From positions 1 to 36,479 of the forward strand of contig CAMZKG010000288.1 of assembly GCA_947311105.1 (NCBI GenBank): a stretch of 36,479 nt of DNA, given 5' to 3'. The stretch comes from an uncultured Saprospiraceae bacterium. GTDB taxonomy: Bacteria; Bacteroidota; Bacteroidia; Chitinophagales; Saprospiraceae. Shown piece after piece: positions 7,501-36,361 of this stretch; the first letter of the stretch is position 1, and each line of letters starts with the position of its first letter. Below the pieces are notes generated by a model. That model saw nothing but the letters and a program-made list of their open reading frames with translations, ran no database searches and was not told the origin of the DNA. Both the position numbers and the translations under genes were made by a program.

Positions 7501-8439
7501 TTCTATATCTACATCCCAAGCGGCATTGGCAGTTGCGCCACAGCTCAAAATACCATTGACGCCCAAAGAATCATAAAAAGCACACCATAATGGCGCATCA
7601 TCGGGCTGTCCCTGGTCAATGCCCCACGAAGAGTTAGTGGCGACCACAAAAGCCCCTTCTGCGCCGTTGGTTTCGTTGTATTTTTTCCGAAAGGCAAGGG
7701 CATAAGAGTAAGATTCAATGACTTCTGCTTCTTGAGCGGTACCCCCAACAATAGTCATTAACTTAACATGCCAGTTGGCTCCTACGCCCTGATTGCCATC
7801 ATTGCCTGTGGCACCAATCATACCAGCAACAGAAATACCGTGACCACCATTATTGACATCATTATTACCATTAATGGTATTCCATCCATTGAAGTCATCC
7901 ACGTATCCATTGCCATCGTCATCGATACCATTGTCGGGGATTTCGGCGTAATTGTGCCAGATATTGGCTTGTAAATCAGGATGGTCTAGTTGTGTGCCAT
8001 CATCAATAATCGCCACCACAATCGTATCTCCATTTGCGGTAATACCCCCAGTAGTTACATCCCAAGCTTGTTCTGCCGCAATGTTTTGCCACTGCCATTG
8101 AGTCCCAAATAGCGGGTCATTGGGTGTCGTCCTGCTATAGACCCTATGGTTGACTTGAGCGACCGCCACTTCTCGCTTGCGCAAAAGTAAATTGCTGACT
8201 TCCCTTGCGGAAATATCTCCGCCGTAGGTGATTTTCCAAATATTCATGTAGGGAGCGATTAAGCGTTTAGCCTTCAAAGGCATTGGACGCTTAGTGGACA
8301 TATCCAATCTCTGCCAAAATACATCCACATCGGTATTGGGTTCAAACCGCACAAGGACTTGGTTGGGTAGATAATTAGTTTCTTGAGCAAAAGCGGGGGC
8401 CATAAATAGAATAGCCAACGTAAATAAGAAAAATCTCAT
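4594..8439 (-). CDS. Secreted S8 (subtilisin) peptidase with FN3 and GEVED domains and T9SS sorting domain
   Basis: 1281 residues from the ATG at 8439, which opens a clear signal peptide (cleavage after AFA, residue 18); the longer frame from 8583 is not needed. The S8 domain spans about 110-440. It has the catalytic Asp in IIDDG (D146), His in GGHGISVAG (H200), Ser in SGTSFASP (S372) and a probable oxyanion Asn at 305. The DDDGNGYVDD stretch is a likely calcium site. Two copies of a 325-residue module follow (445-772 and 777-1100). Each has two FN3-like domains, a GCGAC link and a GEVED domain (WIDFNQNG, PGLTRMRV, TYGEVEDYC). A fifth FN3 and a type A sorting domain (QPNPFSDEF, then GIYMLQL) end the protein. 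It is expected to be exported by Sec, then moved across the outer membrane by T9SS and attached or released. Its substrates are unknown. Confidence 0.92.
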   Translation of the reverse strand: MRFFLFTLAILFMAPAFAQETNYLPNQVLVRFEPNTDVDVFWQRLDMSTKRPMPLKAKRLIAPYMNIWKITYGGDISAREVSNLLLRKREVAVAQVNHRVYSRTTPNDPLFGTQWQWQNIAAEQAWDVTTGGITANGDTIVVAIIDDGTQLDHPDLQANIWHNYAEIPDNGIDDDGNGYVDDFNGWNTINGNNDVNNGGHGISVAGMIGATGNDGNQGVGANWHVKLMTIVGGTAQEAEVIESYSYALAFRKKYNETNGAEGAFVVATNSSWGIDQGQPDDAPLWCAFYDSLGVNGILSCGATANAAWDVDIEGDLPTACPSEYMVAVTATDNNDSRNFSAWGLNTIDVGAPGDNIYTTESGGGYGFTSGTSFASPLTAGVIALLYSAPCPDIASLSLTSPDVAALLVRDYLFNGVDQTDQLVAEIKTGGRINAHKSMQLLMGGCGACTPPFSIQANDITDVSASLSFTALNDSAHIYFRPAGTTDWDTILFASTPYPFTGLEACTEYEVAMHTVCADSLSDLSPIYTFKTDGCCELPANFHIANITNNSTTFAWDYVLAATSFDVTYAPDPFTTGSTVSTSDTTITIDNLTDCTAYQAKIRTNCANSVVIDYGNPVDFKTSGCGACTDLSYCESSGDDNTSEYIDSVEIVGIFVNASGSETDGYGFYDNMNINLLPVQPYELIITPGYSGFAYSEHVKVWIDFNQNGLFEGDEVIVNPDFSISEATSFNFSVPVTAAPGLTRMRVRLDFDVITDSCGTFTYGEVEDYCVNILGNDACIAPFQVGVSDVLDISATLHFTTLNDASANIYYRPVGTTVWDTVLDVSSPYMMTDLAACSNYEVVLETNCADSLSTLSPSFIFKTDGCCMLPDSFAVSNIMDNGALLTWEGVLAANSFDIIYAKEPFTTWDTITTSSLSTPLIGLTKCTKYQAKIRTNCSGNTLSFSSPIDFKTTGCGACLDLNYCASNGGSTDEWIDSVSVETVFDNPTGASTGYEFYSDLGINFTQDNTYEMTITPGYSGTIYGEYLKAWIDFNQNGTFDDDEVIFDTPDKVSAATTQPFTVPVDATPGLTRMRVILNYSFIENTCGEFTYGEVEDYCVTIKEAGYCLGPDSLFVDDIQYYSANMNWAVVDSSISYIVKHRKVGGTWEAATTTGNNYQLTNLDECTEYEAQVRAVCANGLGKKTFNLFKTQCLTGLQAPFGKNAFTVQPNPFSDEFEVVIHGFAAKNIHVRLFDILGKEMKIKAISNQDKLVITPSSQMAAGIYMLQLRTSDNTGTIRVIKE

Positions 8440-8684
8440 TGATTTCGTTTTTGAGAATGCGACAAAATAGATTAAACTCAAAAGTAGTATTTTTTGGACA
8501 AAGTGGATGCGAAATACCCAAAAATGCTCAAAATTTGACGTAATTTCTGCTAGAAATAAAAAAAAAAGCTTTTTTTTACACAATTTAGCTAAAATTGTAA
8601 TTACTTTGTACTGATATTCGTTTTTGTGCAGATTTGAGTATTGATTTTAATATTCAATTAATTGTAAACGAACAAACTAACTCA
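8440..8684. promoter_or_regulatory. Divergent promoter region
   Basis: This separates the minus-strand subtilisin from the plus-strand TPR/SPOR gene. A minus-strand TACTTTTG (8486-8479) fits a -7 element about 40 nt before the subtilisin start; no good -33 was seen. An almost perfect A/T palindrome, A10-GC-T9, lies near 8559-8578. I could not place a convincing promoter for the plus-strand gene. Confidence 0.4.
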
Positions 8685-11414
8685 ATGAGAAAAATAATCG
8701 CCACCCTTTTTGTCCTTGGTTTTGCTAGCATCAGCTTTGGACAATCTCTTCTTGAAAAAGCAGACAAACAGTTTGAACTCAAAGCTTATCAACAAGCCGA
8801 GACTTCTTATCGAAAAATATTAGCGGATGATGCCAATAATGTAGCGGCTACCGCACACTTGGCTGACTGTTACTATTATACCAATGACATGAAACAGGCT
8901 TTGGCTTGGTACAAAAAAGCCATCAATATGCCTGATGTCGATCCAACCGCAATCTTGCGCTATGGTAAGGCTTATATGCGTAGTGGGGACTATTCTAATG
9001 CAGAAAAAATCTTTAAAGCTTACGCAAAAATCGATGCTAAAGTCGGACAACATTATGCTGACTATGCTCGCCTTGCTGCCGAAACGGCCACTTTGCCGCC
9101 TTTTTATCACGTAAAATGGGAGTATTTGAATACCAATAAGGCGGACTTTGGACCGACATTCCTTGGCAATAAAGTAGTCTATTCTTCCGCTCGTACCGAT
9201 ATCAAACGAAAATTTAACACGAAAGCGGGTAAAAACTGGGAAGGTAAATCTTACAATCAACTTTTTATCACCGCAAAAGATAAGAAAGGATACCTGCAAA
9301 AACCTAAGTTGTTGACCAACGATTTGGCTTTTAACTATAATGAAGGGCCTGTCGCTTATAGCGGTAATACGAACAAGCAAGTAGTCATTACTAAGAATCA
9401 ATTCATCAATGGTCATACACTAGAGTCTAACCTAACAGGAGAGATGGCGCTTTTAGCAGCTAATTATTTAGTCTCCGGAAGCTGGGGACATGCTAAAGCG
9501 ATGTCTATCAATCATGCAGAGTCTAGCTCGGGATTTCCTAGCTTTTCACCTGATGGCAAGACGCTTTACTTTTCTTCTAATCGCCCTGGTGGGCAAGGGG
9601 GATATGACATTTACGTAAGTCACTTTATTAATGATAAGTGGACAACACCTACCAACTTGGGCGCACCCATCAATACGCCTGGTGATGAAATTACCCCTTT
9701 CTTCGAAGGCCATAATCTGTTTTTTAGCTCCAACTGGCTGCCAGGTTTAGGTGGTTTTGACTTGTATCGTGCCGAACAAGGCAGTATGGGGACGGATGAT
9801 GACTGGTTAAAAGTCTTTCACTTAGGTACAGGTGTCAACTCTTCCTATGATGATTATGGGTTTATTTTTGATAACTCAAAAAATATCGGTTATTTTACGT
9901 CTAACCGTCGTGGCGTGAAGTCTGGTGATGATATTTATAAGATTACGAAAGTAAGCGACAAAATAGAGATTGTCGTACTCAATGCTTCTGACAATAACCC
10001 ACTTAATGGCGCAACGATTGACTTTTCAGAATGTGGCGAAGGGCAGCTAAAGACCAATGCTAAAGGAAAATCTGTTTTTCAAGCCCTAGCAGGATTAAAT
10101 TGTGATGCGACCATCAGAAAACCTGGTTATAAATCTCAAAAACTAAAAGTGGCTTCTTCTGGTAAGATGGATGCTAAAACCTTTATCGTGAAGTTAGTAC
10201 AATCCGATGAAGAGTTCATCGGAAAAGTGGTGAATAATGACGATAATGCGGGTATGGAGCAAGTATTAGTTACGGCGATTCCTTCTAAGGGAGATGCTTT
10301 TAAGACTTTTACTAACAATGTAGGGGAGTTTACGCTTCCGCTAAAAAGCAAAGAATCCTACACGATTGTTTATTCCAAAGCGGGATTTTCGGATGTAACC
10401 AAAAATGTCAAAACTGGTGATGGAAAAAATCGGACGATTTTGGGTATCCAAGCTATGGTGAATGCCTATTCTGATGTCGCTTTTGCCGTAAAAGGACCTA
10501 GCAAAACAGCAAATACTACTACGAAAAGTGGTGCAGATGTGGCTTCTAGTATATTAAATACTAAGGACACTAAATCCAAAACTGAAATAAAAGACAAAGC
10601 AAAAGCAGATGCCAAAGCAAAAGCAGACGCCAAAGCTTTAGCCGAAATAAAAGAAGCTGCCCTTAAAGCCGAAAAAGCCAAAATCGCTGCCGAAAAAGCT
10701 GCTCTAGAAGCTAAAGAAGAAATCAAGAAGCTGGCGGCTAAAGAAGCTTCCGATAAAGCCAAGTCTAAGCTTACGCAAAAATACGCAGTGCAAGTAGCTG
10801 CCTACGAAATTGATGGCAAGTCCATTAATATGTCCGAGTACAAAAACCTTTTTTCGGAAGGTAATGTATATTCGCGCCCTTCTGGAAAGCACATCAAAAT
10901 TCGTGTCGGTGTCTATAATTCTAAAGAAGAAGCTTCCAAGCATCTAAAGAAAATTAAGAAATCTGGATTTAAACAAGCTTTTATTACGAAGGAGTATTTG
11001 GAGCCGACCAAAGCGGACAAGTCATTGATTGTCAATAAAATGACCGAAAAATCAGTCCCTGCCGTAAAGGAAGTAAAAGCACCTAAAATCACGCCTAAGA
11101 AAAAAGTGGTAACCAAAAAGGCGCCCGTTAAGAAAAAAGCACCAACTAAGAAAAAAACAACCAAAAAGGCAAAAAGACAATATTATGTTCAATTAGCCGC
11201 CTACAAAAATGTTAAATACTTCCCTAGAGCTAAGGTGGAGCCTTTAGGAAAGATTGTCAATACCAAAAATAACAAATACACTACGATGTATGTTACTGGT
11301 TTTGATACGCTAGAAGAAGCCATCGACGCCCGCAATAAAGCCCTTAAAATTGGCTTTAGAAGACCTTATATCGTATATAAGCGCAATGGTAAGTTTGTAA
11401 GGATGAAGTTCTAG
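8685..11414 (+). CDS. PorE-like TPR/PD40/CRD protein ending in two SPOR domains
   Basis: 909 residues from the ATG at 8685, chosen because it begins a signal peptide ([20 protein letters not shown]). Domains in order: TPR repeats (about 20-135); a WD40/PD40 beta-propeller with [21 protein letters not shown] blades (about 150-420); two carboxypeptidase-regulatory-like beta domains (about 425-585); an Ala/Lys-rich coiled coil (about 630-695); SPOR 1 (YAVQVAAYE, about 698-770); a Lys-rich linker (about 785-829); and SPOR 2 (YYVQLAAYK, about 830-905). The first four resemble the T9SS lipoprotein PorE and related OmpA-family proteins, which end in an OmpA-like peptidoglycan-binding domain. Here two SPOR domains, which bind denuded peptidoglycan glycan strands, take that place. 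No lipobox is seen, so it is probably periplasmic. An envelope-tethering role is inferred. Confidence 0.85.
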
Positions 11415-11949: not shown

Positions 11950-14766
11950 TTAGTTGGTACGGTGCATCTGTCTAAAAGTACCAATTAAGCCTTTTTCGTT
12001 GGATAATTTGATGATGTACATCCCTTTAGATAGATTGCTAAGATTAATCTGATTATTGGAAGCCACACCGCTGCTAACCTGCTCCCCAAGTATATTGAAG
12101 ATTGCATAATTCAAAGGCTCATCTTGTTCTTGAGTACGTTGAATATAAACAATATCCTTACTAGGGTTAGGGTATAAGTAATTTACAGTATTCGTATTTT
12201 CAATAAAAGCCGAGACCGTGTGCGAAGTAGTTTTCTTTTCATCAAAGTCAGCTTGAATATATCGGTAGTAGTTGATACCCGCAAAAGGAGCATAGTCATA
12301 GACAATATATTGTTTTCGTGTATCAGAAGTACCTTGTCCGGTTATCCATTCTAAAGTAGTCCAGTTTTGTCCATCTTGGCTTTTTTGAATATCAAATCCA
12401 CGATTGTTTAGCTCCTGTTCTGTTGTCCAATCTAATACGACATAGTCTTTGATTACTCGAGCCCGCAAAGGAACAGCGACCTGAATCGGTAGAGTACCCG
12501 CCGGGGCAAACCCAAAATCAATAGCGTTGACATTAGCTCCAAATACTTGAGCTTCGGTGCTATTGATGCCAATAGAAGCGGTATTGTTGGCGTCTAAAGC
12601 TGCATCACTATCATTGTTTTCGGTGTTTGTTCCTTCGCCAATATTATTTAGCGTAAGGATTTTTCCCGCAAGGGCAGCCTGCTGAGAACTGCCTTCCGCA
12701 TTTAGAATTTGAAAAGTATATGCTTGTTGATTAGCTAGATCCAGATTATAGATTTCACTAGAAGTAGAACTTGCCACAGGGTCACTTGAAAAAATGACCA
12801 TGCCATTTCCGTTTGTCGAAGCAGTGGCTACGACTATCCCGTCTTTTACTAGAGAAACTTCAACATTAGGGATGCCTGGTTCTCCTGGATCCTGAATACC
12901 ATCTGCATCGGTATCTTCCCACACCCTGTTGCACATCTGAATAGGAGCATGATCAGTCAAAAATTCGATGTCGCCCATACCTAATCCTTTGCCACTGTAT
13001 GGCACAGCACCCAAAGCATACGTATAATACCCTTCGATGGCTCCAGTAGTAGTGTTGAGCGTTTCTGTGCCGTGACTGGTCCAATAATCTTCCCCTGTTA
13101 ATCCACTAGGATGCGGATCCATCATTTGAAGAATAAGTTGGTTGGAGCCAGGAATGATAGCAAGAGCACCATTGGAGCCATCGGGCTGTGCATCACCAGA
13201 TAGGTCGTCAAAAAACTCATTACCGTTGGTAGGACACGATCCTGTGCCTTCCACTTCAAAGGTGCCAGAAGTATTGCATACTTTAAGTATTTCACCTTTA
13301 GTTCTATGGTGTTCATCATTTTCGGTATTACCAGATACCGGAGTTGATTGGAAAAACCCAGTTTGAAGCCCAAAACGATCCATGAAGGCAAGATACATAT
13401 TACCCAATTCATCAAAATCAATATCAGAAAGTACAGGCTGTGTATAATATTGCCAAAATCCATTATAGTTAGGTGTAAAAGTTTCTAGCCAAGGATGCCA
13501 ATCTTCACCATCTTTGTCGTAATTAAGATCGATGGTTAATTCTGTTGTAAAGCCAGCCATGGGGTTATCTAGATCAAAAGAAAGGACATAAGCTTTCATG
13601 TCATTGATGTTTTGGCTCGAGATGCCATCATTCACTAATCCTAAATAGCCTTTACCACGATAAATGGTAATGGCCCAAGGGCGTAGTTCTCCACCTGTAA
13701 CAGAAGGCAAGCCTGGGATGGATGTTATCAAATATTGACTGACAGTATTGGTCATAGAAGCAAGGTCGCCCGAAGCGTCTATTTTGATGATACCTTTTTG
13801 GTTTAGGTTTATGAGCCAAATACTTTCTGTATTATTGTCGAAGTCTATACCACCAAAACCAACTTTTGCTACTTTCGTAAAAGCATCTAAGTCTATGTTC
13901 TTGGCATTATTGTCGATGATGTAGTCCGTTGCGACTCCTGTATTGCCGCTGTCGTTTGCGCAAGCTGCATCTCTACAAACAGATCCTAAATCAATATCTG
14001 CACCACCGTTTATAGGAGTTATACCTTGTAAATCAAAATTACCAGTTACCTGAGCCGAAGCTCCTGAATAATCCATCACGAAAATATTACCAAGTCCTGT
14101 GCCAGCCGCAAATGAAGCATGGCGCCACAAAACAGCTGGTAAAAACATTCTTTGCTTGGACTTTTGAAAAGTTTTGCTCCAGTTGCTACCGATTTCGGCG
14201 ATAAGCGCATCATCTACAGGAATAGGGCCTGTGCCTTGTACGCCTTGTGATGTGTTATAATTACTATTTAAACCATAGTAATTATAGCCTACGGTTTGGA
14301 TTGTAGCTAGTGTGTGACCAGCTGCGTCACCTGATACCTTTAAATTGGTTACATAGTCTGGGGTTGCCGTTGAAGAGTAATCATTGGGATCCTGTAAGCC
14401 AAAGTTAACGTTGCAATCGGCAGCCGCAATAAATCGAACAGGCATGTTCTGGGCACCATGGGAAGGCTGTAGCCAGCTTTGATTCCAAGAAAACTCCACT
14501 CTAACAGGAAAGGACGGATTTGGGATATTCCACTCTCCAGAATTATCGGTAGTCGTTGATGTCAGTATTCCTTGACTGTCATAAACATTAACTGTAATGG
14601 CCGAAATCCCTGGTTCATTGCTGTCTTTTATGCCATAAGTATTTGATTGAGACCCATTGGCTGGGAGCTCGAGATAGACGGTGCCACCGATATCGGTACT
14701 ACCGCATTGGGCTTGCATCTTGGCAGATAGCAATAAGATGGTTAGAAAGTAAAGTAATTTTTTCAT
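11950..14766 (-). CDS. Large secreted SdrD-B-like surface protein with T9SS sorting domain
   Basis: 938 residues with a signal peptide (MKKLLYFLTILLLSA, then QAQ). Residues about 22-130 look like an SdrD-B/Cna-B-type beta domain (GIKDSNEPGISAITVNVYD). Residues about 135-600 are a beta-rich region with repeated strand and turn motifs such as GFGGIDFDNN and LSDIDFDELGNMYLAF, consistent with a propeller. A second SdrD-B domain (RVWEDTDADGIQDPGEPGI) spans about 607-740. An FN3-like segment (LDWTTEQELNNRGFDIQKS, about 765-860) precedes a type A sorting domain (LYPNPSKDIVYIQ, then GMYIIKLSNEKG) in the last 75 residues. It is expected to be surface-attached or secreted through T9SS; an adhesive or structural role is a guess. 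No clear promoter was found in the 600-bp region upstream, which carries GTTATAAC palindromes. Confidence 0.85.
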   Translation of the reverse strand: MKKLLYFLTILLLSAKMQAQCGSTDIGGTVYLELPANGSQSNTYGIKDSNEPGISAITVNVYDSQGILTSTTTDNSGEWNIPNPSFPVRVEFSWNQSWLQPSHGAQNMPVRFIAAADCNVNFGLQDPNDYSSTATPDYVTNLKVSGDAAGHTLATIQTVGYNYYGLNSNYNTSQGVQGTGPIPVDDALIAEIGSNWSKTFQKSKQRMFLPAVLWRHASFAAGTGLGNIFVMDYSGASAQVTGNFDLQGITPINGGADIDLGSVCRDAACANDSGNTGVATDYIIDNNAKNIDLDAFTKVAKVGFGGIDFDNNTESIWLINLNQKGIIKIDASGDLASMTNTVSQYLITSIPGLPSVTGGELRPWAITIYRGKGYLGLVNDGISSQNINDMKAYVLSFDLDNPMAGFTTELTIDLNYDKDGEDWHPWLETFTPNYNGFWQYYTQPVLSDIDFDELGNMYLAFMDRFGLQTGFFQSTPVSGNTENDEHHRTKGEILKVCNTSGTFEVEGTGSCPTNGNEFFDDLSGDAQPDGSNGALAIIPGSNQLILQMMDPHPSGLTGEDYWTSHGTETLNTTTGAIEGYYTYALGAVPYSGKGLGMGDIEFLTDHAPIQMCNRVWEDTDADGIQDPGEPGIPNVEVSLVKDGIVVATASTNGNGMVIFSSDPVASSTSSEIYNLDLANQQAYTFQILNAEGSSQQAALAGKILTLNNIGEGTNTENNDSDAALDANNTASIGINSTEAQVFGANVNAIDFGFAPAGTLPIQVAVPLRARVIKDYVVLDWTTEQELNNRGFDIQKSQDGQNWTTLEWITGQGTSDTRKQYIVYDYAPFAGINYYRYIQADFDEKKTTSHTVSAFIENTNTVNYLYPNPSKDIVYIQRTQEQDEPLNYAIFNILGEQVSSGVASNNQINLSNLSKGMYIIKLSNEKGLIGTFRQMHRTN

Positions 14767-24363: not shown

Positions 24364-24482
24364 GCGCTCCCTTTGGTCGCTGTTGGTCTTTAGTGCGCTC
24401 CTTCGTCGCTGTTGGTCTTTGGTGCGCTCCTTTGGTCGCTGTTGGTCTTTGGTCGCTCCTTCGTCGCTGTTGGTCTTTGGTG
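24364..24482 (-). repeat. Tandem array of a roughly 30-bp unit, four copies
   Basis: The unit GCGCTCC(TTTGG or TTC)GTCGC, then TGTTGGTCTTTGGT, is repeated with the two internal variants alternating. Its reverse complement is the unit of the array at 30389-30516. The open frame across it is a by-product of the repeat. Confidence 0.85.
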
Positions 24483-25585: not shown

Positions 25586-27157
25586 TCAGTATTTAGCGGC
25601 CATCTGTAAGGCCCGATACAAATTCACCACGCCCCCAGTACGGCATAATTCACGCATATTTGCCAGTTCTTGCGTATCGGTCTTTTTTACTTTTTGCGTA
25701 AGCGGCATGGTCGAAGCCATGATGATTTTTTTTACATCTTTGGCGGATAGGTTGGGGTAGTAGCCCATCAACACAGCGGCGACTCCAGCAGTTACGGGCG
25801 TAGCCATGCTAGTACCGTTATAGCTCGCATAAGTATTTTCGGGCGTGGTGGAATAAATCGCTACGCCTGGCGCAAAGACATCCACCGTATTTTGACCATA
25901 ATTGGAAAAAGTGGCGATGGCATCTTCTCCTTTTTTCCACGAAAGGGCTCCGACATCGAGCCAAGTTTTGACATATTTGGAGCCAAACCAACGTTTTTTC
26001 TGATAGTGGTCATTGGGAAAAACGATGAGTTTATCTACATTTTTGGAATCATTCATGGCGGCGTGGACTAACAAGACGCCATGTCTAGAAGCATATCGCA
26101 TTGCTTTGTCCACGGCTTTTTTGTCCCAAGAATACGGCTTTCCGAAGCTCATATTGATGATTTTCGCGCCATTGTCCACGGCATAGATGATTCCATTGGC
26201 AACGTCTTTGTCTCGTTCATCTCCGTCAGGTACGGCACGGACGGACATAATTTGTACATTGTCAGCGATGCCGTCCATACCGATGCCATTATTTCGTTTG
26301 GCAGCGATGATACCTGAGACGTGGGTGCCATGGGAAGAATCTGGCCCTTTAGAATCGTTATTGCCGTAATGTTTTTCGTAGGAGTTTGTGTAATTATCGC
26401 CGACGATTTTTCGTGCATTGAAATCAGGATTGTAGTAATAATTGACATTTTTGGCATAATAATCATAAGCACCTTCTAGTCGCTTGCGCAAATCAGCGGC
26501 CGTTCCGCCTTTGTGGAGCATTTGAATGATTTGACCAGCCAATGGGGTATTGACTTTGATATTAGGAATATCTTCTGCGGTAAAATCATCCTTCCCATAG
26601 GCTTTTTGCAAAGCGGTTAAAGCATCCAGCAAGCCTTCAAATCGATCAAAATTATCTTTTACCCCTTTGTATTGTTTGTCATAGTCTTTTTTGATGAGCA
26701 AGTATCTGTTGTATTCTTTTTTTTGCTTTCGCGAAAGGCTATTTGGGTCGGTATCTTTAAATTTTTTGGTATAATAACTATACAGGCGGGTGATTTCTAG
26801 CTGTTCTTTGTCAATATTCTTTCCATCTTTTCCACCGATAAAATTCCAACCATGAATATCATCTATATAGCCATTATGGTCATCGTCGATGCCATTGTTG
26901 GGGATTTCGCCAGGGTTAGTCCACATAATGTCCTTTAGGTCTTCATGCTTGTCATCGACCCCTGAATCCAAAACGGCAACGATAATGGTTTTTGCTTTTT
27001 TGTCTTTCAGGAGTTCTTTGTATGCTTTGTAAGAGCTAACGCCCATGTAGCCGTCAGTTTGTTTGTCTAAATGAAACCAATCTTTTGGAGGATTGGCTTG
27101 CGCCAAAAGGGTATTGGCCATTGCTAAAAAAAGAATGGAAAGAAGAAGATGCTTCAT
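25586..27157 (-). CDS. S8 family serine peptidase with a long insertion, no sorting domain
   Basis: 523 residues with a signal peptide (MKHLLLSILFLAMANTLLAQ). The triad is complete: D64 in VAVLDSGVD, H276 in SSHGTHVSG and S450 in YNGTSMATP, with the oxyanion Asn at 369 (HAAMND). A DDDHNGYIDD loop probably binds calcium. Between Asp and His sits an insertion of about 130 residues (about 110-245), rich in Lys, Tyr and helix. The protein ends right after the catalytic domain, so unlike the subtilisin at 4594 it has no T9SS tail and is probably periplasmic. It lies 27 bp downstream of leucyl aminopeptidase but also has a promoter of its own. Confidence 0.9.
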   Translation of the reverse strand: MKHLLLSILFLAMANTLLAQANPPKDWFHLDKQTDGYMGVSSYKAYKELLKDKKAKTIIVAVLDSGVDDKHEDLKDIMWTNPGEIPNNGIDDDHNGYIDDIHGWNFIGGKDGKNIDKEQLEITRLYSYYTKKFKDTDPNSLSRKQKKEYNRYLLIKKDYDKQYKGVKDNFDRFEGLLDALTALQKAYGKDDFTAEDIPNIKVNTPLAGQIIQMLHKGGTAADLRKRLEGAYDYYAKNVNYYYNPDFNARKIVGDNYTNSYEKHYGNNDSKGPDSSHGTHVSGIIAAKRNNGIGMDGIADNVQIMSVRAVPDGDERDKDVANGIIYAVDNGAKIINMSFGKPYSWDKKAVDKAMRYASRHGVLLVHAAMNDSKNVDKLIVFPNDHYQKKRWFGSKYVKTWLDVGALSWKKGEDAIATFSNYGQNTVDVFAPGVAIYSTTPENTYASYNGTSMATPVTAGVAAVLMGYYPNLSAKDVKKIIMASTMPLTQKVKKTDTQELANMRELCRTGGVVNLYRALQMAAKY

Positions 27158-27205: not shown

Positions 27206-28663
27206 GGCAACTAAAAGATGTACGCCAAAAGCAGTGGCATTGGCTTGGTTGCTAAATTCATTATCGTTGAGTGCTTGACCAGCGATATCCAAATGCGCCC
27301 ATTTAGGGTGTTTATTGGTAAAAACTTCTAAGAATTTTGCGGCAGTGATAGCACCGCCGTTGGGAGAAGAAGCCAGGTTTTTGATGTCTGCAATATCAGA
27401 TTTCATCTCATCCAAATATTCGTCCCACATCGGCATGGGCCAAAGGCGTTCCCCTGATTTCTGTCCAGCATTAATTAGTTGTTCGGAGAGTTCTTTATTT
27501 TGTGTAAACAATCCTGCGGCAGGCTTTCCGATAGCTCGAACGATACTACCCGTCAAAGTCGCCAAGTCAATCATGACATCGGGCTTAAACGCTTTATTTG
27601 CGTAAGCTAATCCATCTGCCAAAACCAATCGGCCTTCAGCATCGGTATTCAAGACTTCGATGGTTTTGCCGCTAAAAGAATCAATGATATCACCAGGTTT
27701 TATGGCCGTACTTCCGATGTTATTTTCAGCGGAAGCAACGACACCCACGACATGGATGGGGAGTTTTAGTTGGGCTATTACATCCATCGCTCCGATGACT
27801 GCTGCCGCTCCGCCCATATCACTTTTCATCAAGTGCATGTTGTGGCTAGGCTTTAGAGAAACTCCGCCTGTGTCGAAGGTAACGCCTTTGCCCACTAGGG
27901 CTACGGTTAGTTTTGCGGCTTTTTTGGGTTTGTAGTCCATGACAATCATGGCCGAAGGGTTGGGGCTAGCTTGACCGACCGCGTGGAGTGCATGAAACCC
28001 TTTTTTGACGACGGCGCTTCCGCTAAAAACGGTTAGTTTGTATCCCGAAGCTTTTGCATTATTTCTTGCAAGAGCGACTAATGTAGAAGGTATTTTTTTG
28101 TTGGCAGGTTTGTTGACTAGGTCAAAAATTTTGATTTGTGCATCAGAAAGAATGGATGCTTGGTCAATGGCTTTTTTTGCGGCAGCAGGTTTAGCATTAG
28201 AAAAGATGACCAATTTTGCGGAAGCCGAAAGGAAGCCAGTTTTCTTAGGTTTTTTGCTTTTGAAAAGGTTGTTATTGTAACGTCCAAGTAATGCGCCGTT
28301 GACGGATGCTGCTAAAAGCTGAGCGGCATCATATTTTTGTTGGTCATCCGCAAAGTGTAAATCCAACCCAACGGAAGCCTGGAATGATTTTTTGTTTTTA
28401 AAGACTAGGCTTCTGATTGCTCTAGTGATGGCGGTTTGGTTATTCGCCTTGCCTAAACCGACTAAAAACAAAGTTCGCTCACCTGCAAAAACAGTTAAAG
28501 TTTCTTTGTCTTCCCCAGCCCATTTGGCGGCGTTGAAAGCGGGTGGAGTGCCATAAGTTTTGGCAATTTGTTGGATGATTTCTTTAGAATCTTTTGATTT
28601 CCAAACAGGTATAATGACCGTTTTGGGTAGTCGATTCGTGGATGAAGTAAGGCTAAATTTCAT
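27185..28663 (-). CDS. Leucyl aminopeptidase, M17 family
   Basis: 492 residues, cytoplasmic. The catalytic domain is intact: VGKGVTFDTGG with K259 and D264, KSDMGGAAAV with D282, and the M17 signature NTDAEGRLVLAD with D341, E343 and R345. The N-terminal half (1-180) is the usual divergent regulatory domain. M17 enzymes are hexameric two-metal exopeptidases that remove N-terminal residues. It is probably the first gene of a two-gene unit with the S8 peptidase, which suggests linked peptide degradation. Confidence 0.93.
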   Translation of the reverse strand: MKFSLTSSTNRLPKTVIIPVWKSKDSKEIIQQIAKTYGTPPAFNAAKWAGEDKETLTVFAGERTLFLVGLGKANNQTAITRAIRSLVFKNKKSFQASVGLDLHFADDQQKYDAAQLLAASVNGALLGRYNNNLFKSKKPKKTGFLSASAKLVIFSNAKPAAAKKAIDQASILSDAQIKIFDLVNKPANKKIPSTLVALARNNAKASGYKLTVFSGSAVVKKGFHALHAVGQASPNPSAMIVMDYKPKKAAKLTVALVGKGVTFDTGGVSLKPSHNMHLMKSDMGGAAAVIGAMDVIAQLKLPIHVVGVVASAENNIGSTAIKPGDIIDSFSGKTIEVLNTDAEGRLVLADGLAYANKAFKPDVMIDLATLTGSIVRAIGKPAAGLFTQNKELSEQLINAGQKSGERLWPMPMWDEYLDEMKSDIADIKNLASSPNGGAITAAKFLEVFTNKHPKWAHLDIAGQALNDNEFSNQANATAFGVHLLVAFVKSLA

Positions 28664-28812: not shown

Positions 28813-29841
28813 TTAGTCAAAATCTAACAATAAAGGTCTAAATTGAACTTTTGATGCTTCGATTAGTTGATTTCCGATGGCACTGATGGTCTGGTCAATA
28901 GGTCGATATTGGAAGTCAAAAGTCTGTGTAGATTTAGAGTTGTCAAATACAAAAGACTTGGCAGAGATCATGGCGGTTTCTTTAGTAATCATAGGCGAAG
29001 ATCCAAGAATTTTGGATTTTAGCCATTCTAGCCGCCAGGCGACGCCGCGAATAAAGGGATTGACGGGGATGGACGGAGCGGGTTTTTCAGTGGAATCCGC
29101 GATTTTTTGAAAAAAGTCTTTGAAAGGCAGGTTGGCACCATTGGCAATAAATCGCTCTGTGTGGATGTCGCTTTGCATCATTTTGATCATAAGTTCGGCG
29201 ACGTCTCTGACATCTACGAAGCCTGTTTGTCCTTCGGGAAAAAACTTTAGCCCTTTCCAAATCTCGTGAAAAATCTGAGTGGAGCCAGATTTCCAAACAC
29301 CACTACCTAAGATAATGGACGGGTTGATAATGACGGCATGGAGTCCTTCGGCGATTCCGCGCCAAACTTCTTTTTCCGCCAGGTATTTTGTTTTTGCGTA
29401 AGCTGTGTTGATGGGGCTGTCTTCCCATTTTTGATTTTCTTTAACGATGGGGTTTTTGAGATTGCGCCCGATGGCTGCGATGGAGGAGACGTGGACGAAT
29501 TTGGAGATTTTAGCGTTTAAAGCGGCATTGACGACATTGGCGGTTCCATTGACGTTGATGTGCTTCATTTTTGGTCGGTCGGAAGACTTGAAAGAAACAA
29601 TAGCGGCGCAATGATAGACTAGTTTGACTCCGCGCATGGCATCTTCTAGCCCAATCACGTCCAAAATGTCACAGTCTATCCATTCGATTTGATTTTTGAT
29701 GTTTTCGACTAGGTGTAGTTGACTGGTCGGACGTTTTAGTGCCCTGATGCGTGTGTAGCCGTCGATGATTAGCTTGCGCAAAAGGTAACTTCCTAGAAGA
29801 CCTGTGCCGCCTGTTACTAGTATTTGTTGGTTTTTATTCAT
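28813..29841 (-). CDS. NAD(P)-dependent epimerase/dehydratase (extended SDR)
   Basis: 342 residues. N-terminal Rossmann motif ILVTGGTGLLGSY (G11, G14, G17), a DIxD motif (DCDILD), and the catalytic YAKTK (Y148, K152) with a Ser pair at 119-120 in HVSSIAAIG. The closest type I recognise is the dihydroflavonol-4-reductase-like group of extended SDRs, but the substrate is not predictable. No signal peptide. Its promoter lies just upstream, and a repeat-rich non-coding region separates it from the TonB receptor gene. Confidence 0.87.
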   Translation of the reverse strand: MNKNQQILVTGGTGLLGSYLLRKLIIDGYTRIRALKRPTSQLHLVENIKNQIEWIDCDILDVIGLEDAMRGVKLVYHCAAIVSFKSSDRPKMKHINVNGTANVVNAALNAKISKFVHVSSIAAIGRNLKNPIVKENQKWEDSPINTAYAKTKYLAEKEVWRGIAEGLHAVIINPSIILGSGVWKSGSTQIFHEIWKGLKFFPEGQTGFVDVRDVAELMIKMMQSDIHTERFIANGANLPFKDFFQKIADSTEKPAPSIPVNPFIRGVAWRLEWLKSKILGSSPMITKETAMISAKSFVFDNSKSTQTFDFQYRPIDQTISAIGNQLIEASKVQFRPLLLDFD

Positions 29842-30388: not shown

Positions 30389-30516
30389 AGCACCAAAAGG
30401 GCGAAGCCCGCACCAAAGACCAAAAGCGACGAAGGAGCGCACCAAAGACCAAAAGGGCGAAGCCCGCACGAAAGACTAAAAGCGACGAAGGAGCGCCCCA
30501 AAAGACCAAAGAAACC
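30389..30516 (+). repeat. Composite tandem repeat, reverse complement of the array at 24364
   Basis: A conserved GCACCAAAGACCAAAAG is followed alternately by GGCGAAGCCC and CGACGAAGGAGC. The GGGCGAAGCCC hairpins at 30399-30409 and 30455-30465 have a GAA loop on a four-pair G/C stem. The CGACGAAGGAGC half matches the array at 24364-24482 on the other strand. Confidence 0.85.
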
Positions 30517-30579: not shown

Positions 30580-32856
30580 ATGCCCAAATTACTCTTTTTT
30601 TTATTGCTCTCTTCTACTTGTGCTTTCGGGCAGTCTTTGGTTATTTCTGGGACGGTGGTAGATGCTGATTCGGGGCAACCCATCGCTTTTGCTAATATTT
30701 TTGCGCAAGCAGGAGGAACGACCACCGATAATGCAGGGAATTATGAACTTTCTATTCCTTGGCAGGAGGATGTGGTGGTGACTTGTTCTTTTTTGGGGTA
30801 TGAAGCGAAAGAACAACAGGTGAAATCTACCGATAATCATGTGATTAGCTTGGATTTTACTTTGGTTTTGTCCGATAACCTTCTGGAAACTGCGGTGGTG
30901 ACGACGGGAAGATTTGAAAAGAAATTGAGTAAAACGACGGTCTCTTTGGCTGTGGTTAAACCGAAATTGCTCGAAACGACTAATACAATTACGGTGGATG
31001 ATGTGCTGAATCGTCTGTCTGGTGTGGATGTCATTGATGGACAGGCCAATATACGGGGTGGGTCAGGTTATTCTTATGGAGCGGGTAGTCGGGTGTTGTT
31101 GTTGCTGGATGGGATGCCGATTATGCAAACGGATGCTGCTTTTCCGAATTGGTATGATATGCCCATCGAAAATATAGGCCAAATCGAGATTCTGAAAGGG
31201 GCAGCGTCAGCACTCTATGGTTCGTCGGCGATGAATGGCATCGTGAATATTCGGACTGCTGTGCCTACCGAAAAGCCTTATTTACGGATTGCGCCTTTTT
31301 ATACGACGTATTTTAGTCCCAAGGATAAAAGCCAGAAATGGTGGGATAAGTCGCCTTATGGGGCTGGATTGAGTGCGGTATATCGCCAACGATTGGGTAA
31401 GCTCGGGGTGAGTTTGGGTGGTTTTTATCTCAATGAAGAAGGGTATAAGCAGGGGACTTACAAGAAATATGGCCGTGGTTTTGTGGGGCTTGATTATCGT
31501 TTTTCCGAAAGGGTCGAAGCAGGAGTCCACGCTTACTATAATCCTGGTTCGACGGCTACTTTTTTCTTTTGGAATGATGATAGTACGGGGATTTATCAAC
31601 CGGCACCGAATACTTTATCGTCTTCCGAGCGGACGCGATTTAATGTGGATCCTTATGTCAAATATTTTGATGGATATGGCAATGTGCATAAGATTCAAGG
31701 GCGCTACCTTTCGGCAAATAACAAGAATAGCGCTAATCAAGGGGTGGTTTCCACGATGGCTTTTGTGGAGTATCAATATCTTCGACAGTTTAAGCAAATT
31801 GGCTTGACGGTGACTTCGGGATTGGCGACTACGGGGTCGTATGTCTCGGCTGAATTGTATGGAGATACGACTTATACGGCTCGAAATAATGCGGTTTATT
31901 TGCAGTTGGAGAAAAGTATTGAGAACTTGACACTTTCTGGTGGTGTGCGGTATGAGTCTAATGTGCAGCATAGTCCAGAAGTGATACCTACGACTGTATT
32001 TGGGGTGACTACTTATGATACGATACCTGGAGGAGAAAGCAAAGAATCAAAACCTGTATTTCGGGCAGGATTGAATTGGAAGCTGGGTAAAGCGACATAT
32101 ATACGGGCTTCTTTTGGGCAGGGCTATCGGTATCCGACGATTGCGGAGAAGTTTATTTCGACGGAGTTTGGTGGCGGGATACCTATCATGCCGAATGCGT
32201 CATTGGTTTCGGAGTCTGGTCATTCTGTTGAGTTGGGTGTCAAACAAGGGTTTCAGTTTGGGGAGTTGAAAGGCTTTGTGGATGCGTCCTATTTTGTTTC
32301 TCGGTATAATGATATGATGGAATTTGCTTTTGGTGGTCGGGATGGGCAAACCTTGGGTTTTGCGTCGATAAATATCGGCAATACGCGTATCTCTGGGTCG
32401 GAGTTTACCCTTGCGGGGAAAGCAAAAATTGGACGTGTGGAAAATCAATTTATGGGTGGTGTCATGTTTATAAATCCTAGCTATATAGATTTTACCCAAA
32501 GGATAAAAAATGCATCTAGCTCCAATAAGAATATATTGAAATATCGGTTTAAGAATAGTTGGAAGTTGGATTGGGAGTCCGTCTATAAAAAGGCGGCGTT
32601 GGGTGTGTCGGTGATACATAACGGTCCGACGGAGGCTGTGGATGCATTTTTGGAAAGCTTTATCAAGGGGGCTAAGCGATTTAGGGAAAATAATAATGGC
32701 TTTACTCGGCTCGATTTGCGTACGTCTGTGGCGTTTACGAAGCAGTATAAACTCTCTATTATTGGGCAAAATGTACTAAATCAGGCATATTCGCAAAGAG
32801 TTGGTAAGCTGGAAGCACCTTTTAACGTTAGTTTTCGTTTTGATTTTTTGTTGTAG
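30580..32856 (+). CDS. TonB-dependent outer-membrane receptor
   Basis: 758 residues with a signal peptide (MPKLLFFLLLSSTCAFGQ). Residues about 20-105 are a carboxypeptidase-regulatory-like domain (ISGTVVDADSGQPIAFANIF). The plug domain follows (VDDVLNRLSGVDV, then IRGGSGYSYGAGSRVLLLLDG, then IEILKGAASALYGSSAMNG). The rest is a 22-strand-type barrel rich in aromatic strands, ending with a terminal Phe-rich strand (FNVSFRFDFLL). It imports a siderophore, cobalamin or similar ligand using TonB energy. The length is that of stand-alone receptors, not SusC, and no SusD gene adjoins, so glycan uptake is unlikely. The ligand is unknown. Confidence 0.92.
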   Translation: MPKLLFFLLLSSTCAFGQSLVISGTVVDADSGQPIAFANIFAQAGGTTTDNAGNYELSIPWQEDVVVTCSFLGYEAKEQQVKSTDNHVISLDFTLVLSDNLLETAVVTTGRFEKKLSKTTVSLAVVKPKLLETTNTITVDDVLNRLSGVDVIDGQANIRGGSGYSYGAGSRVLLLLDGMPIMQTDAAFPNWYDMPIENIGQIEILKGAASALYGSSAMNGIVNIRTAVPTEKPYLRIAPFYTTYFSPKDKSQKWWDKSPYGAGLSAVYRQRLGKLGVSLGGFYLNEEGYKQGTYKKYGRGFVGLDYRFSERVEAGVHAYYNPGSTATFFFWNDDSTGIYQPAPNTLSSSERTRFNVDPYVKYFDGYGNVHKIQGRYLSANNKNSANQGVVSTMAFVEYQYLRQFKQIGLTVTSGLATTGSYVSAELYGDTTYTARNNAVYLQLEKSIENLTLSGGVRYESNVQHSPEVIPTTVFGVTTYDTIPGGESKESKPVFRAGLNWKLGKATYIRASFGQGYRYPTIAEKFISTEFGGGIPIMPNASLVSESGHSVELGVKQGFQFGELKGFVDASYFVSRYNDMMEFAFGGRDGQTLGFASINIGNTRISGSEFTLAGKAKIGRVENQFMGGVMFINPSYIDFTQRIKNASSSNKNILKYRFKNSWKLDWESVYKKAALGVSVIHNGPTEAVDAFLESFIKGAKRFRENNNGFTRLDLRTSVAFTKQYKLSIIGQNVLNQAYSQRVGKLEAPFNVSFRFDFLL

Positions 32857-32948: not shown

Positions 32949-34439
32949 ATGAATAGACAGGAAACACTAAATCGACTTTCTACGGAGTCTTATGATTTGC
33001 TCATCATCGGTGGTGGGATAACGGGGGCAGGAGTGGCGTTGGATGCGGCATCACGCGGGCTAAAAGTTGCTTTGGTGGAAAAAGGAGATTTTGCATCAGG
33101 AACAAGTAGTAAGTCCACGAAATTGATACATGGTGGTTTGCGATATTTGAAGCAATTGGAGATTAGTTTGGTGCGAGAAGTAGGTCAGGAGCGGGCTTTA
33201 ATACATAAGTTGGCGCCGCATTTGGTGATTCCTGAAAAGATGTTATTGCCGTTGATAAAAGATGGTACATTTGGTAAGTGGGCGACGACTATTGGGCTTT
33301 TTACTTATGATTTGTTGGCTGGAGTGTCGGGAAAGGATAAGTTTCGGATGCTCGATAAGGGGGAGACGATGGAGATTGAGCCTTTGTTGCCTGAAGAGAA
33401 GATTTTGGGTTCGGGTTTGTATGCGGAGTATCGGACTGATGATGCACGGTTGACGATAGAAGTGATGAAAACAGCAGCTCGGCATGGTGCTTTGCCTTTG
33501 AACTATGTCCTTGCGGACAAATTGATTTATAGTGAAGGAAAAGTGTCTGGCGCCAGGTGTAAGGATGTATTGACGGGCAAAGAGCTTGAAATAAAGGCAA
33601 AATTTGTGGTGAATGCGACGGGGCCCTGGAGTGATGAATTGCGCAAGCAGGATGGTTCGTTGACGGATAAGCGGATGTTTTTGACGAAAGGCGTACATTT
33701 AGTGTTTCCGTGGGCAAAATTACCGATAAAGCATGCGATTTATTTTGATGTGCCAGGTGGGCGGATGATTTTTGCGATTCCCCGACAGGGTATTGTGTAT
33801 GTTGGGACTACGGATACGCCTTATGATGGGGATTTGGATGATATACGTGTGGACGAAGAGGATATTTCGTATTTGTTGGGAGCGGTTAATAATATGTTTC
33901 CGAGTATTGAATTGAATAGTCAGGATGTACAGGCTTCTTGGGCAGGCGTGCGGCCTTTGATCTATGAAGCGGGCAAATCGGCGTCAGAGATTTCCCGGAA
34001 GGATGAGATATTTGAGTCGGAATCTGGCTTGATGACGATAGCCGGGGGTAAGTTGACTGGTTATCGGGTGATGGCGGAGAAAATTACCAATTTGGTGTGT
34101 AAACGATTATGGAAAGGGTATCAGTTGAATTTTGAGCCGTGTAAGACGAAAGAAATTCCCCTTACTGAAAGGTCTTTTAGTTCCTATCAAGCGGTATTGG
34201 ACTATGAAGCAGATTTGGCGCAAGCCCTTGCGGGAAAAGGATTGTCGGGTAAGGAAGCGACTTATTTGGTGCAGAATTATGGGCGGCAAAGTGATGAGAT
34301 CGTGTCACAAATGAAAGGGCGTGGGGCGGAGGCGATGATTGAAGCGGAGAAGGCGTTTACGGCTCGCTATGAGTGGGTGGAGAAAATGGATGATTTTTGG
34401 GATAGACGGTCTGGACGGCGTTTGTTTTTAGGGGGGTGA
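32949..34439 (+). CDS. glpD: FAD-dependent glycerol-3-phosphate dehydrogenase
   Basis: 496 residues from the ATG at 32949; a GTG at 32925 is in frame but lies in an A-rich leader, and the ATG better fits the family N-terminus. The FAD-binding motif is YDLLIIGGGITGAGVALDAASRG, split over residues 15-37. It is followed by the family-specific SSKSTKLIHGGLRYL. PLIYEAGK and TIAGGKLTGYR complete the FAD/substrate site. The C-terminal helical domain ends DFWDRRSGRRLFL. It oxidises sn-glycerol-3-phosphate to dihydroxyacetone phosphate and passes electrons to the quinone pool at the inner membrane. It lies 92 bp after the TonB receptor without a terminator, so co-transcription is possible. Confidence 0.94.
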   Translation: MNRQETLNRLSTESYDLLIIGGGITGAGVALDAASRGLKVALVEKGDFASGTSSKSTKLIHGGLRYLKQLEISLVREVGQERALIHKLAPHLVIPEKMLLPLIKDGTFGKWATTIGLFTYDLLAGVSGKDKFRMLDKGETMEIEPLLPEEKILGSGLYAEYRTDDARLTIEVMKTAARHGALPLNYVLADKLIYSEGKVSGARCKDVLTGKELEIKAKFVVNATGPWSDELRKQDGSLTDKRMFLTKGVHLVFPWAKLPIKHAIYFDVPGGRMIFAIPRQGIVYVGTTDTPYDGDLDDIRVDEEDISYLLGAVNNMFPSIELNSQDVQASWAGVRPLIYEAGKSASEISRKDEIFESESGLMTIAGGKLTGYRVMAEKITNLVCKRLWKGYQLNFEPCKTKEIPLTERSFSSYQAVLDYEADLAQALAGKGLSGKEATYLVQNYGRQSDEIVSQMKGRGAEAMIEAEKAFTARYEWVEKMDDFWDRRSGRRLFLGG

Positions 34440-34640: not shown

Positions 34641-34653
34641 TATTAGATTTTCC

Positions 34654-34684: not shown

Positions 34685-34732
34685 CGTTTGTTTTACAGGT
34701 GTATCCTGTCACACATTAACAAACAACAAGAT

Positions 34733-36361
34733 ATGAGAACCTTTTTGATTTTATTCCTATCCTTTGTCAGTATGACATTGAGTGCTATTCAGACGAAGTA
34801 TATTCTGTTTGATCCTAATTGTATGGATCGATTGGAGTATAGATATAGTGGGTCGAATACGGACTATGTGACATACCAAATTCATACAAATTCAAGTATC
34901 CTAGCTTTGGAAGTGGGTATAGAAAATAAGAAGAATTATAGTTATTTGCCGAAAGGTACAGTTGGATGTGGAAGTAGTTTGTTTGATGAGAAATTGGTAA
35001 AATCTATTAATAATAATTTGATAGATGTTTTTGTGGTGATGCGTCAGCCCGATGGTCAATATCATATTTCGCCTGCGCGTATGGCTAGTTTTATGAATAA
35101 AGACGCTAAGTCTGGTCGTATTATTCGCCCGGATTACGAATATACTTATGGAAGTGATGTGTTGAATACTGGTGGGAATTTGGCGACAGCGAGTTCGGAG
35201 TCACAAGTGTTTTATTCGGGAGAAGATGTGAATGCTTGCCGACCTTTTCATTTTACGAGCATCAGTAAGAATACTTGCCGTCCAAATACAGACATTTATT
35301 ATTTACATGGAATAGGGATTGTGGAGGAGCGAGTGGGCTCTACTTTGGAAGAGTCTAATGCTAATACTTATCGCTTGCGCAAAATTAATGGGGTGACGTT
35401 GGATGAATTTAAATCTGCTTTCTGTAAAGGTCGCCGCATCCAGTTGGGTAAGGTGTCTCCTGCGCCTGCACCCAAAAAGTCTGCTCCTGTAGCGAAGGTG
35501 GCTGCTCCCGTAAAATTTGTTCCGAAAAGGTGTCATGGCGTTGCGAAAGCCAATCATCACTTGGTTCAGTACGGGGAGAATCTATTTTCTATTGCTAGAA
35601 GAGAAGGGGTGACCGTGCGCCAACTACGTAGATGGAATAACTTGAAATCTACCAAGATATATGCTTGTACGCAATTGCGTGTAACGGCTCCACAGTATTC
35701 TTTAGCAACTAAAAAGGCGCCTAAACGGAAATTTAAGGCGAAAGGGATTGCCAAAAAGACTGTTGTAAAGAAGAAAACACCCAAAAAGTATGTAGCTAAG
35801 AAAAGAGCACCCAAAAAGTATGTGGCTAAGAAAAAATATGTGGCAAAGAAGAAAGCCCCAGTCAAAAAGTACGTGTCAAAGGTGAAACCAAAGAAATCTA
35901 CAAATGGCGTGCACGTTGTAGGGAAAGGAGAAAATCTATATATGTTGGCGACTTTGTATGGATATACGGTGGAGCGTTTTGCCCACATGAACGGGATAGA
36001 TGAAAATACAGTTTTACAACCTGGAATGGAGCTGTTTACAACGGATTGTAGCTGCCCAACGGAGTCAGATGCTAAGGTTAAACATAAGTCTGCTCCAAAA
36101 TCAACCGTAAAAGCAAGGAGTTTGGAGACGGAAGTTATCGTGAAGGAAGGGGAATTACCTGTTTTGTCAGGTAGTAGCTCCATTCCCGCTGAAAGGGTGG
36201 TTGTGGCTCCAAAAGTGACTTACCATATCGTCTCCGAAGGCGAAACCATCTGGTCTATCGCTAATGCCTATGGGTTTGATACCAGTAAATTGATGAAGAG
36301 AAATAATCTGGACGCCGGAGAAGTGCTAATTCCTGGTCAGAAGATTTATTTTCCTAAGTAA
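34733..36361 (+). CDS. Secreted protein with three LysM domains
   Basis: 542 residues from the ATG at 34733, which starts a signal peptide (MRTFLILFLSFVSMTLSA). Residues about 20-245 form a domain I do not recognise, with several cysteines (PNCMD, VGCGS, NACRP, NTCRP) that could pair. LysM domains follow at about 275-320 (VQYGENLFSIARREGVTV), 393-437 (VGKGENLYMLATLYGYTV) and 496-541 (VSEGETIWSIANAYGFDT). They are separated by long basic linkers; the main one (about 330-392) is built of KKYVAKK and APKK repeats. LysM binds N-acetylglucosamine-containing glycans, here most likely peptidoglycan in the periplasm. No hydrolase domain is seen. The Lys-rich linkers resemble those of the SPOR protein at 8685. 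Confidence 0.85.
   Translation: MRTFLILFLSFVSMTLSAIQTKYILFDPNCMDRLEYRYSGSNTDYVTYQIHTNSSILALEVGIENKKNYSYLPKGTVGCGSSLFDEKLVKSINNNLIDVFVVMRQPDGQYHISPARMASFMNKDAKSGRIIRPDYEYTYGSDVLNTGGNLATASSESQVFYSGEDVNACRPFHFTSISKNTCRPNTDIYYLHGIGIVEERVGSTLEESNANTYRLRKINGVTLDEFKSAFCKGRRIQLGKVSPAPAPKKSAPVAKVAAPVKFVPKRCHGVAKANHHLVQYGENLFSIARREGVTVRQLRRWNNLKSTKIYACTQLRVTAPQYSLATKKAPKRKFKAKGIAKKTVVKKKTPKKYVAKKRAPKKYVAKKKYVAKKKAPVKKYVSKVKPKKSTNGVHVVGKGENLYMLATLYGYTVERFAHMNGIDENTVLQPGMELFTTDCSCPTESDAKVKHKSAPKSTVKARSLETEVIVKEGELPVLSGSSSIPAERVVVAPKVTYHIVSEGETIWSIANAYGFDTSKLMKRNNLDAGEVLIPGQKIYFPK

Follow-up and report, generated by a model that had tools for sequence, protein, structure and literature searches.

T-run mini-hairpins with GNAA loops, a possible structural self tag in some Saprospiraceae genomes

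The hairpin element in the window and its genome

The window analysed here, the whole 36,479-nucleotide stretch of contig CAMZKG010000288.1 from an uncultured Saprospiraceae bacterium (assembly GCA_947311105.1), contains 47 copies of a short hairpin element, compared with 2 of its control. The unit is a T-run followed by a 2–5 bp stem of variable sequence that is closed by a GNAA loop. As counted throughout, a T-run of at least three directly adjoins the GNAA hairpin, and the same hairpin with an A-run is the control.

The commonest form of this hairpin is the 10-mer TTGCGCAAGC, which a preliminary description of the same DNA had singled out as over-represented, directional, located inside genes and not explained by protein sequence alone. 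The window holds 12 exact copies, against a mean of 0.05 and a largest count of 1 in 100 dinucleotide shuffles, and all 12 lie within long open reading frames (ORFs). Ten of the positions first listed were correct; the one given as 30711 should read 30701, and a copy at 5545–5554 (−) had been overlooked. That copy and the one at 33639–33648 (+) have a T-run of just 2 and fall outside the count of 47. The other copies sit in counted hairpins at 13955–13965, 16009–16020, 16369–16381, 23425–23435 and 30698–30711 (10-mer at 30701–30710) on the forward strand and at 8175–8186, 17713–17726, 26482–26492, 29772–29783 and 35373–35384 on the reverse strand.

Further counted hairpins have 2-bp stems at 6020–6030, 7681–7694, 9610–9620, 25691–25703, 27597–27607, 28214–28225, 29391–29403, 31500–31512 and 35419–35429 (+) and at 3796–3809, 8203–8213, 9018–9030, 10769–10781, 21638–21648, 22543–22554 and 23613–23623 (−). 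Stems of 3 bp are found at 736–751, 1261–1273, 3699–3711, 4835–4849, 12660–12674, 15676–15690, 17977–17990, 21784–21798, 22111–22125, 27498–27510 and 34214–34226 (+) and at 3873–3886, 13870–13882, 15882–15894 and 34225–34238 (−). Those of 4 bp are at 911–927, 15465–15480 and 18274–18289 (+) and at 27094–27108 and 33507–33521 (−), and one of 5 bp is at 4763–4780 (+).

The source genome (G000; 3.83 Mb in 328 contigs, 98% complete) has 783 copies of TTGCGCAAGC, 376 forward and 407 reverse, and 0 of the reversed word. Simple patterns such as this one were counted over whole genomes (forward plus reverse, given over a reversed-pattern control), unlike hairpin statistics, which for G000 come from 41 stretches totalling 569,165 bp, window included, and for the same-genus genome G001 from a 498-kb sample also used for k-mers. 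T-run GNAA hairpins number 688 in G000, a density of 1.21 per kb, where A-run controls number 38; the corresponding figures for G001 are 587, 1.18 per kb and 39. The excess is not confined to the window but is genome-wide and genus-wide, with 613, 693 and 370 copies of TTGCGCAAGC in the same-genus genomes G001, G002 and G004; a further member of the genus, G003, has 32.

Protein sequence is indeed insufficient as a cause. Synonymous codon shuffling of 371 ORFs in G000 (20 rounds) left a mean of 9.55 and at most 17 copies of TTGCGCAAGC, compared with 120 observed, and 53.8 hairpins, compared with 624; in 347 ORFs of G001 it left 6.85 10-mers versus 70 and 50.2 hairpins versus 519. A mispaired control was unmoved by the shuffle (3 vs 3.5 in G000 and 7 vs 4.0 in G001).

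What the enriched words share is a fold. In the 498 kb of G001, TTTTGCGCAAGC plus TTTTGCGAAAGC, TTTTCCGAAAGG and TTTTCCGCAAGG stand far above a fourth-order Markov expectation, and the 569 kb of G000 yield TTTTGCGCAAGC as a 12-mer, TTTTGCGAAAGC and TTTTCCGAAAGG as 10-mers and TTTTCCGCAAGG as an 8-mer core; these k-mers have no common word and one common fold, namely T-run, stem, GNAA loop and complementary stem. Paired instances of TTT, a 2-base stem and GNRA number 613 in G000, where 159.5 are expected, and 507 in G001, where 136.5 are, while the same test with an AAA prefix gave 118 against 112.7 and 112 against 96.8. Over-represented 2-base stems include GC, CC, AC, CT, CG and GT, and among instances of TTT-[G/C]C-GNAA-G-[G/C], 617 have complementary outer letters and 10 do not (G000 and G001 together). 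A T-run of at least three stands at the helix foot of 214/442 2-bp, 151/242 3-bp, 30/63 4-bp and 3/19 5-bp stems in G000, in a tally whose six-base flank cuts longer-stem cases.

The signal that had first been described is real, directional, genome-wide, not explained by protein sequence and hyperabundant, and its unit is a hairpin, not a 10-mer or a palindrome. The palindromic octamer TTGCGCAA and its one-sided GC arise because the element form is TT + GC-GCAA-GC; the extension, said to accompany every octamer, is one-sided at 12 of 12 octamers in the window and at 69 of 82 sites in 296 kb of the genome, and two-sided at 0, which limits the statement to the window.

Loop letters 1, 3 and 4 are chiefly G, A and A, and letter 2 is free, being C in 271 cases, A in 207, G in 80 and T in 59. 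GNCA loops are enriched slightly (21 paired vs 7 unpaired), the GNCA/GNTA/GNGA set is hardly enriched, and neither GNA triloops nor GNGA loops (3 vs 617 GNAA) showed enrichment in the G000 and G001 samples. Other loops with a T-run occur 7–103 times in G000; the most frequent, TTNC (103 in G000, 92 in G001), are tentatively taken as elements followed by an A-run and viewed from the opposite strand. Folding predictions for DNA give four element forms energies between −1.1 and −3.4 kcal/mol and leave the mispaired control unfolded. The commonest forms, with GC and CC stems and a GNAA loop, belong to the fold class of stable DNA mini-hairpins (GNA/GNNA loop, at least two G-C pairs); AC, CT and AT stems have fewer G-C pairs.

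It is the pairing, not the sequence, that is kept across genera of differing base composition, and the preferred pairs vary by genus. The CC..GG form TTNCCGNAAGG reaches 1541/30 (count/control) in G000, 1545/50 in G001, 1517/57 in G002, 1467/34 in G157, 1138/65 in G107 and 1073/74 in G163, with 40/25 in G003. Its mispaired CC..GC counterpart TTNCCGNAAGC stays at 27/37, 56/40, 89/48, 49/56, 74/48 and 68/64 in G000, G001, G002, G157, G107 and G163, and at 33/16 in G003. The A-T form AC..GT, TTNACGNAAGT, exceeds its control in G000 (421/35), G001 (386/40), G002 (430/45), G163 (508/101) and G107 (78/22) and shows no excess in G157 (60/80), whose sample has 59% GC, and in G031 (39/42). Double changes at orthologous sites kept the pairing in 6 of 11 cases, too few to count as evidence.

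Placement in genes and distribution among relatives

Under greedy ORF calling, 635 of the 688 hairpins in G000 lie within ORFs and 53 outside or across them (62 outside or across in G001). They are spread roughly evenly along the ORFs, and every codon phase is represented. Density per kb and strand in G000 is 0.54 in sense orientation, 0.75 in antisense orientation and 0.32 in intergenic DNA, and hairpin-free gaps in the sampled stretches reach 5.9 kb at most.

Same-strand copies keep a distance from one another. Of 2613 pairs at 100–2000 bp, 1186 are on the same strand, against 1277.8 expected (standard deviation 22.8), and 0 of 3000 strand shuffles reached so low a value; with other loops, T-run hairpins are not depleted in this way and tend instead to an excess within 2 kb. 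We read this spacing as each strand being covered separately.

Outside the genus, 51 of 55 relatives have 0–37 copies of TTGCGCAAGC, the exceptions being G031 (180), G022 (81), G034 (49) and G049 (49). Scans of the family (248 genomes) and the phylum (296 genomes) used a single element form, which other dialects would escape, and enrichment cut-offs judged by eye. They show a patchy quantitative trait within Saprospiraceae, where about 25 genomes reach five times control and many are at or below control; none of the 290 genomes outside the family rose above about four times control, the highest being G359 (87/22). The five nearest relatives by DnaE are Saprospiraceae MAGs, which assigns the window to this family of the Bacteroidota. 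Among 80 Bacteroidota loci around the DnaE homologue, richness is confined to the two that belong to the closest relatives, and the 72 lowest hold 88 T-run versus 85 A-run hairpins in 1.28 Mb. On viral contigs, none of 80 loci, out of at least 120 stretches matching one 14-mer form, was element-rich; over 735 kb these loci contain 110 hairpins, of which no fewer than 80 are owed to the selection itself, compared with 48 A-run controls.

Sites turn over among close relatives. In an 84-kb alignment of G000 and G001 (75% DNA identity), the element is present in both genomes at 60 of 112 G000 sites, often with another stem pair or loop letter. Sharing amounts to 12 of 28 sites for G002, 7 of 30 for G004 and 0 of 21 for G003. 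Among the examples listed, element-free sites differ via substitutions, with few gaps.

Within the genus, G002 and G003 differ 38-fold in TTNCCGNAAGG (1517 vs 40). Both apparently come from one metagenome, and a sequencing artefact was rejected on this ground. No replacement motif was seen in 184 kb of G003; its two top word groups, considered as a possible dialect, proved to be repeats mainly outside ORFs (20/26 and 31/32 hits). As a separate observation, G003 (52% GC in the sample) carries its own dispersed repeat with GTAAGTGCGGGA, present in 10 of 25 stretches (L111–L115, L201–L219) and with 20 of 26 hits outside ORFs.

The window also contains repeats of other kinds. The palindrome CGAACGGCCGTTCG, at 435–448, 19699–19712 and 22853–22866, is a dispersed, mostly intergenic repeat with 42 both-strand hits (21 sites) in the 569 kb of G000, 34 of the 42 outside ORFs of at least 100 amino acids. 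An intergenic element at 19485–19582 has many copies in G001 and G002, occurs in G003 too, and resembles a dispersed repeat with ends reading like CTAAACAGTTAC. Short intergenic tandem arrays lie at 24367–24483 (four copies of ~29 nt) and 30392–30503 (two copies of 56 nt), and dispersed copies of them are numerous in G001, with some in G002 too. At gathering scores, Rfam matches nothing in the window.

Possible readers and functions of the hairpin

Because a reader of duplex DNA cannot demand complementarity of otherwise free letters, we infer that the fold itself must form, be it in single-stranded DNA, RNA or an extruded cruciform. Stems of 2 bp appear too short for a cruciform and RNA is disfavoured by orientation and scarce G-U pairs, as detailed below, so single-stranded DNA remains. 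Since stability alone neither picks GNAA over GNA nor needs a T-run, a putative protein would bind T-run and hairpin together. It comes close to an even chance, in our judgement, that the genomes of some Saprospiraceae hold, throughout, a code for self-recognition in the form of DNA structure, not sequence, with thousands of T-run mini-hairpins, a set on each strand, that a dedicated protein would read in single-stranded DNA to distinguish own from foreign DNA during exchange or repair.

Tentatively, and somewhat short of an even chance, we regard the hairpin as a ‘self’ tag that a protein would recognise while the DNA is single-stranded, with DNA uptake or recombination as the most likely occasion. 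Transformation through ComEC brings in either strand. Riemerella columbina, of the Bacteroidota, is described as taking DNA of its own kind by preference in transformation, with no established signal (PMC7965970), and self-preference therefore exists within the phylum. These two points, together with the lack of strand polarity, favour a single-strand self tag in DNA exchange.

The hairpin would fold once DNA is single-stranded, for instance after import through ComEC, whichever strand enters. GNA/GNNA mini-hairpins with two G-C pairs are characterized in PMC4686876 as exceptionally stable DNA that resists nucleases and shields 3′ ends, and such resistance could leave tagged strands protected, or passed to recombination, more than untagged foreign ones. 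If tagged DNA were then incorporated preferentially, the tag would build up genome-wide, as has been proposed for uptake sequences. The same-strand spacing would follow if a copy is required on every strand, and in a genome that has lost the reader, perhaps G003, the tags would decay.

Several observations weigh against a self tag of this kind. Hairpins are sparser between genes than within them, and many uptake sequences differ from this pattern; the same-strand deficit is small, just 7%; and site retention against G001 is only moderately above controls (36/77 paired sites, compared with 36/120 for unpaired GNAA and 83/355 for other loops). By eye, the first residues of the ORFs in the 8 longest hairpin-free gaps look ordinary. 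A lack of the tag in mobile elements could not be shown. G022 has 81 copies of TTGCGCAAGC versus 7 controls, yet no excess of TTNCCGNAAGG (71/100) or TTNACGNAAGT (43/125). Competence in these genomes is itself putative. Among 34 sampled relatives (draft genomes, 84–100% complete), ComEC was found in 33, motif-rich and motif-poor alike and G003 included, which discounts it as the discriminating gene, and it was not found in motif-rich G252 (93% complete). No reader gene emerged among the families searched in these 34 genomes (ComEC, Y1, PF00437 and PDDEXK_1).

Individual candidates for a reader or its machinery fared as follows. The PDDEXK_1 domain (PF12705) matches in 34/34 genomes, rich and poor, and was set aside as a discriminating gene on that account. 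The Y1 transposase (PF01797) matches in 18/34 and in none of the motif-rich G157, G252, G163 and G031, and was rejected as the reader. Junction cutting of the RuvC type at the T-run, which follows the rule WTT/S, was rejected because the first pair after the run is often T-A, and a restriction or methylation word because the element's sequence is free. A full-length ATPase of type IV pili or type II secretion (PF00437, E<1e-100) occurs only in G226 and G153 (loci L285 and L286), both motif-poor; all other PF00437 matches are partial and of low significance (best 2.7e-6), with G126, G124, G031 and G022 just past the cut-off.

An unlikely alternative is a signal of the Chi or nuclease-barrier type, in which the hairpin halts an exonuclease, or changes its mode of action, while the cell mends breaks in its own DNA, and has no role in DNA exchange. 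The element appears to be read per strand and is so dense that any break would have one nearby, and the ubiquitous PDDEXK_1 match, a domain match and not an enzyme identification, is presumably to a nuclease domain of the AddB/RecB kind. Protection of 3′ ends from exonuclease by mini-hairpins (as described in PMC4686876) would fit as well. Replication and Chi-type repair are nevertheless disfavoured, because the polarity that they predict was not found: in stretches of at least 10 kb, 596 hairpins lie on the G-rich and 557 on the C-rich strand, as judged by GC skew as a proxy for the origin, and strand balance along contigs gives chi-square values of 19.8 (33 degrees of freedom) in G000 and 13.9 (25 degrees of freedom) in G001. 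One would also expect a housekeeping signal of repair to be shared, whereas this one is patchy in one family and missing in G003, and the element is a structure, not a fixed sequence.

Rather improbable is the absence of any function, with a mutational or gene-conversion bias of the lineage creating and keeping very stable mini-hairpins in single-stranded DNA. The unusual stability ascribed to this loop class in DNA (PMC4686876), the even scatter along ORFs and the turnover, with about half of the sites differing between G000 and G001, are all compatible with such a bias. It sits poorly with the lack of enrichment of the very stable GNA triloops and the near-absence of it in other GNNA loops, with the 5′ T-run for which an A-run is not accepted, with the lower density in intergenic DNA, the least constrained part of the genome, and with the mutual repulsion of same-strand copies.

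We consider it very improbable that the hairpin works in mRNA, as a binding site or through transcript stability, for example. GNRA tetraloops are classical RNA loops, the tested element sequences are predicted to fold as RNA too, most copies are genic, and the outer G-T cell (31) exceeds other mismatches. However, antisense copies outnumber sense ones (368 vs 267 in G000, 278 vs 247 in G001), and the antisense form gives no GNRA loop in the mRNA; GNGA loops are nearly absent, and outer G-T/T-G pairs are scarce (40, compared with 706 Watson-Crick), a point that is only suggestive given the G-T cell.

A conventional double-strand uptake or methylation word hardly comes into question: density, presence on both strands, coding location and a patchy spread with absence from a single species resemble known words of this kind, HIP1 and DNA uptake sequences, but the stem letters are free provided that they pair, which a duplex reader cannot see, and the full-length pilus-type ATPase is confined to two motif-poor genomes.

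Comparison with known genome-wide signals

The preliminary description had compared the 10-mer to DNA uptake sequences, Chi sites and the cyanobacterial palindrome HIP1; each analogy fails on at least one tested feature, be it the fixed word, the pilus ATPase, strand polarity or the palindrome. The DNA uptake sequences of Neisseriaceae and uptake signal sequences of Pasteurellaceae (DUS/USS) are fixed 9–12-mers at about 1 per kb that are read in double-stranded DNA by a type IV pilus machine. The hairpin resembles them in its hyperabundance on both strands, its lineage specificity, its turnover among relatives and its would-be role as a self tag. It differs in being a hairpin with free stem letters and in that no full-length pilus-type ATPase was found in the motif-rich genomes tested.

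Chi sites, read by RecBCD or AddAB, are fixed short words that are usually strand-polar. The Saprospiraceae element would likewise be read in single-stranded DNA and is dense and located in coding DNA, but it is structural and unpolarised. HIP1 (GCGATCGC) is described as having high genomic frequency, low or absent in exceptional lineages, with its role unsettled (PMC4390886), which is a similar picture. HIP1, however, is a fixed palindrome tied to methyltransferases, whereas the element here is defined by pairing and loop: TTGCGCAA is a by-product of the GC-GCAA-GC form, and the forms with CC and AC stems are non-palindromic.

Repetitive extragenic palindromes (REPs) and intrinsic terminators are intergenic, and terminators bear their T-run on the 3′ side. 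REPs with their Y1 transposases (RAYT) and terminators share with the element many short hairpins with a conserved flank. In contrast to both, the hairpins here lie inside ORFs and evenly along them; the T-run is 5′, and 16 of the 34 genomes have no PF01797 match.

Mini-hairpins of the d(GCGAAGC) type are known as synthetic oligonucleotides. The commonest element forms share the GNNA-type loop, at least two G-C pairs and the fold class of d(GCGAAGC) and d(GCGAAAGC) (as described in PMC4686876), the difference being that GNA triloops are unused in Saprospiraceae. Our literature search turned up no natural genome-wide use of stable mini-hairpins, and among the matches listed in a full-text search, which covered few subscription journals, there was no description of such an element. 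A structural, strand-specific, genome-wide and intragenic element fits none of the known classes (DUS, USS, HIP1, Chi, REP and terminators).

The known hyperabundant signals DUS, USS, HIP1 and Chi are words, whereas the Saprospiraceae signal is a fold, present about once per kb inside genes, and word-counting surveys may miss or misread structural signals of this kind. The same-genus contrast between G002 and G003 offers a natural comparison. If the hairpin is a tag, cells of this family can mark their own genome by single-strand secondary structure, and a new class of reader protein would await discovery.

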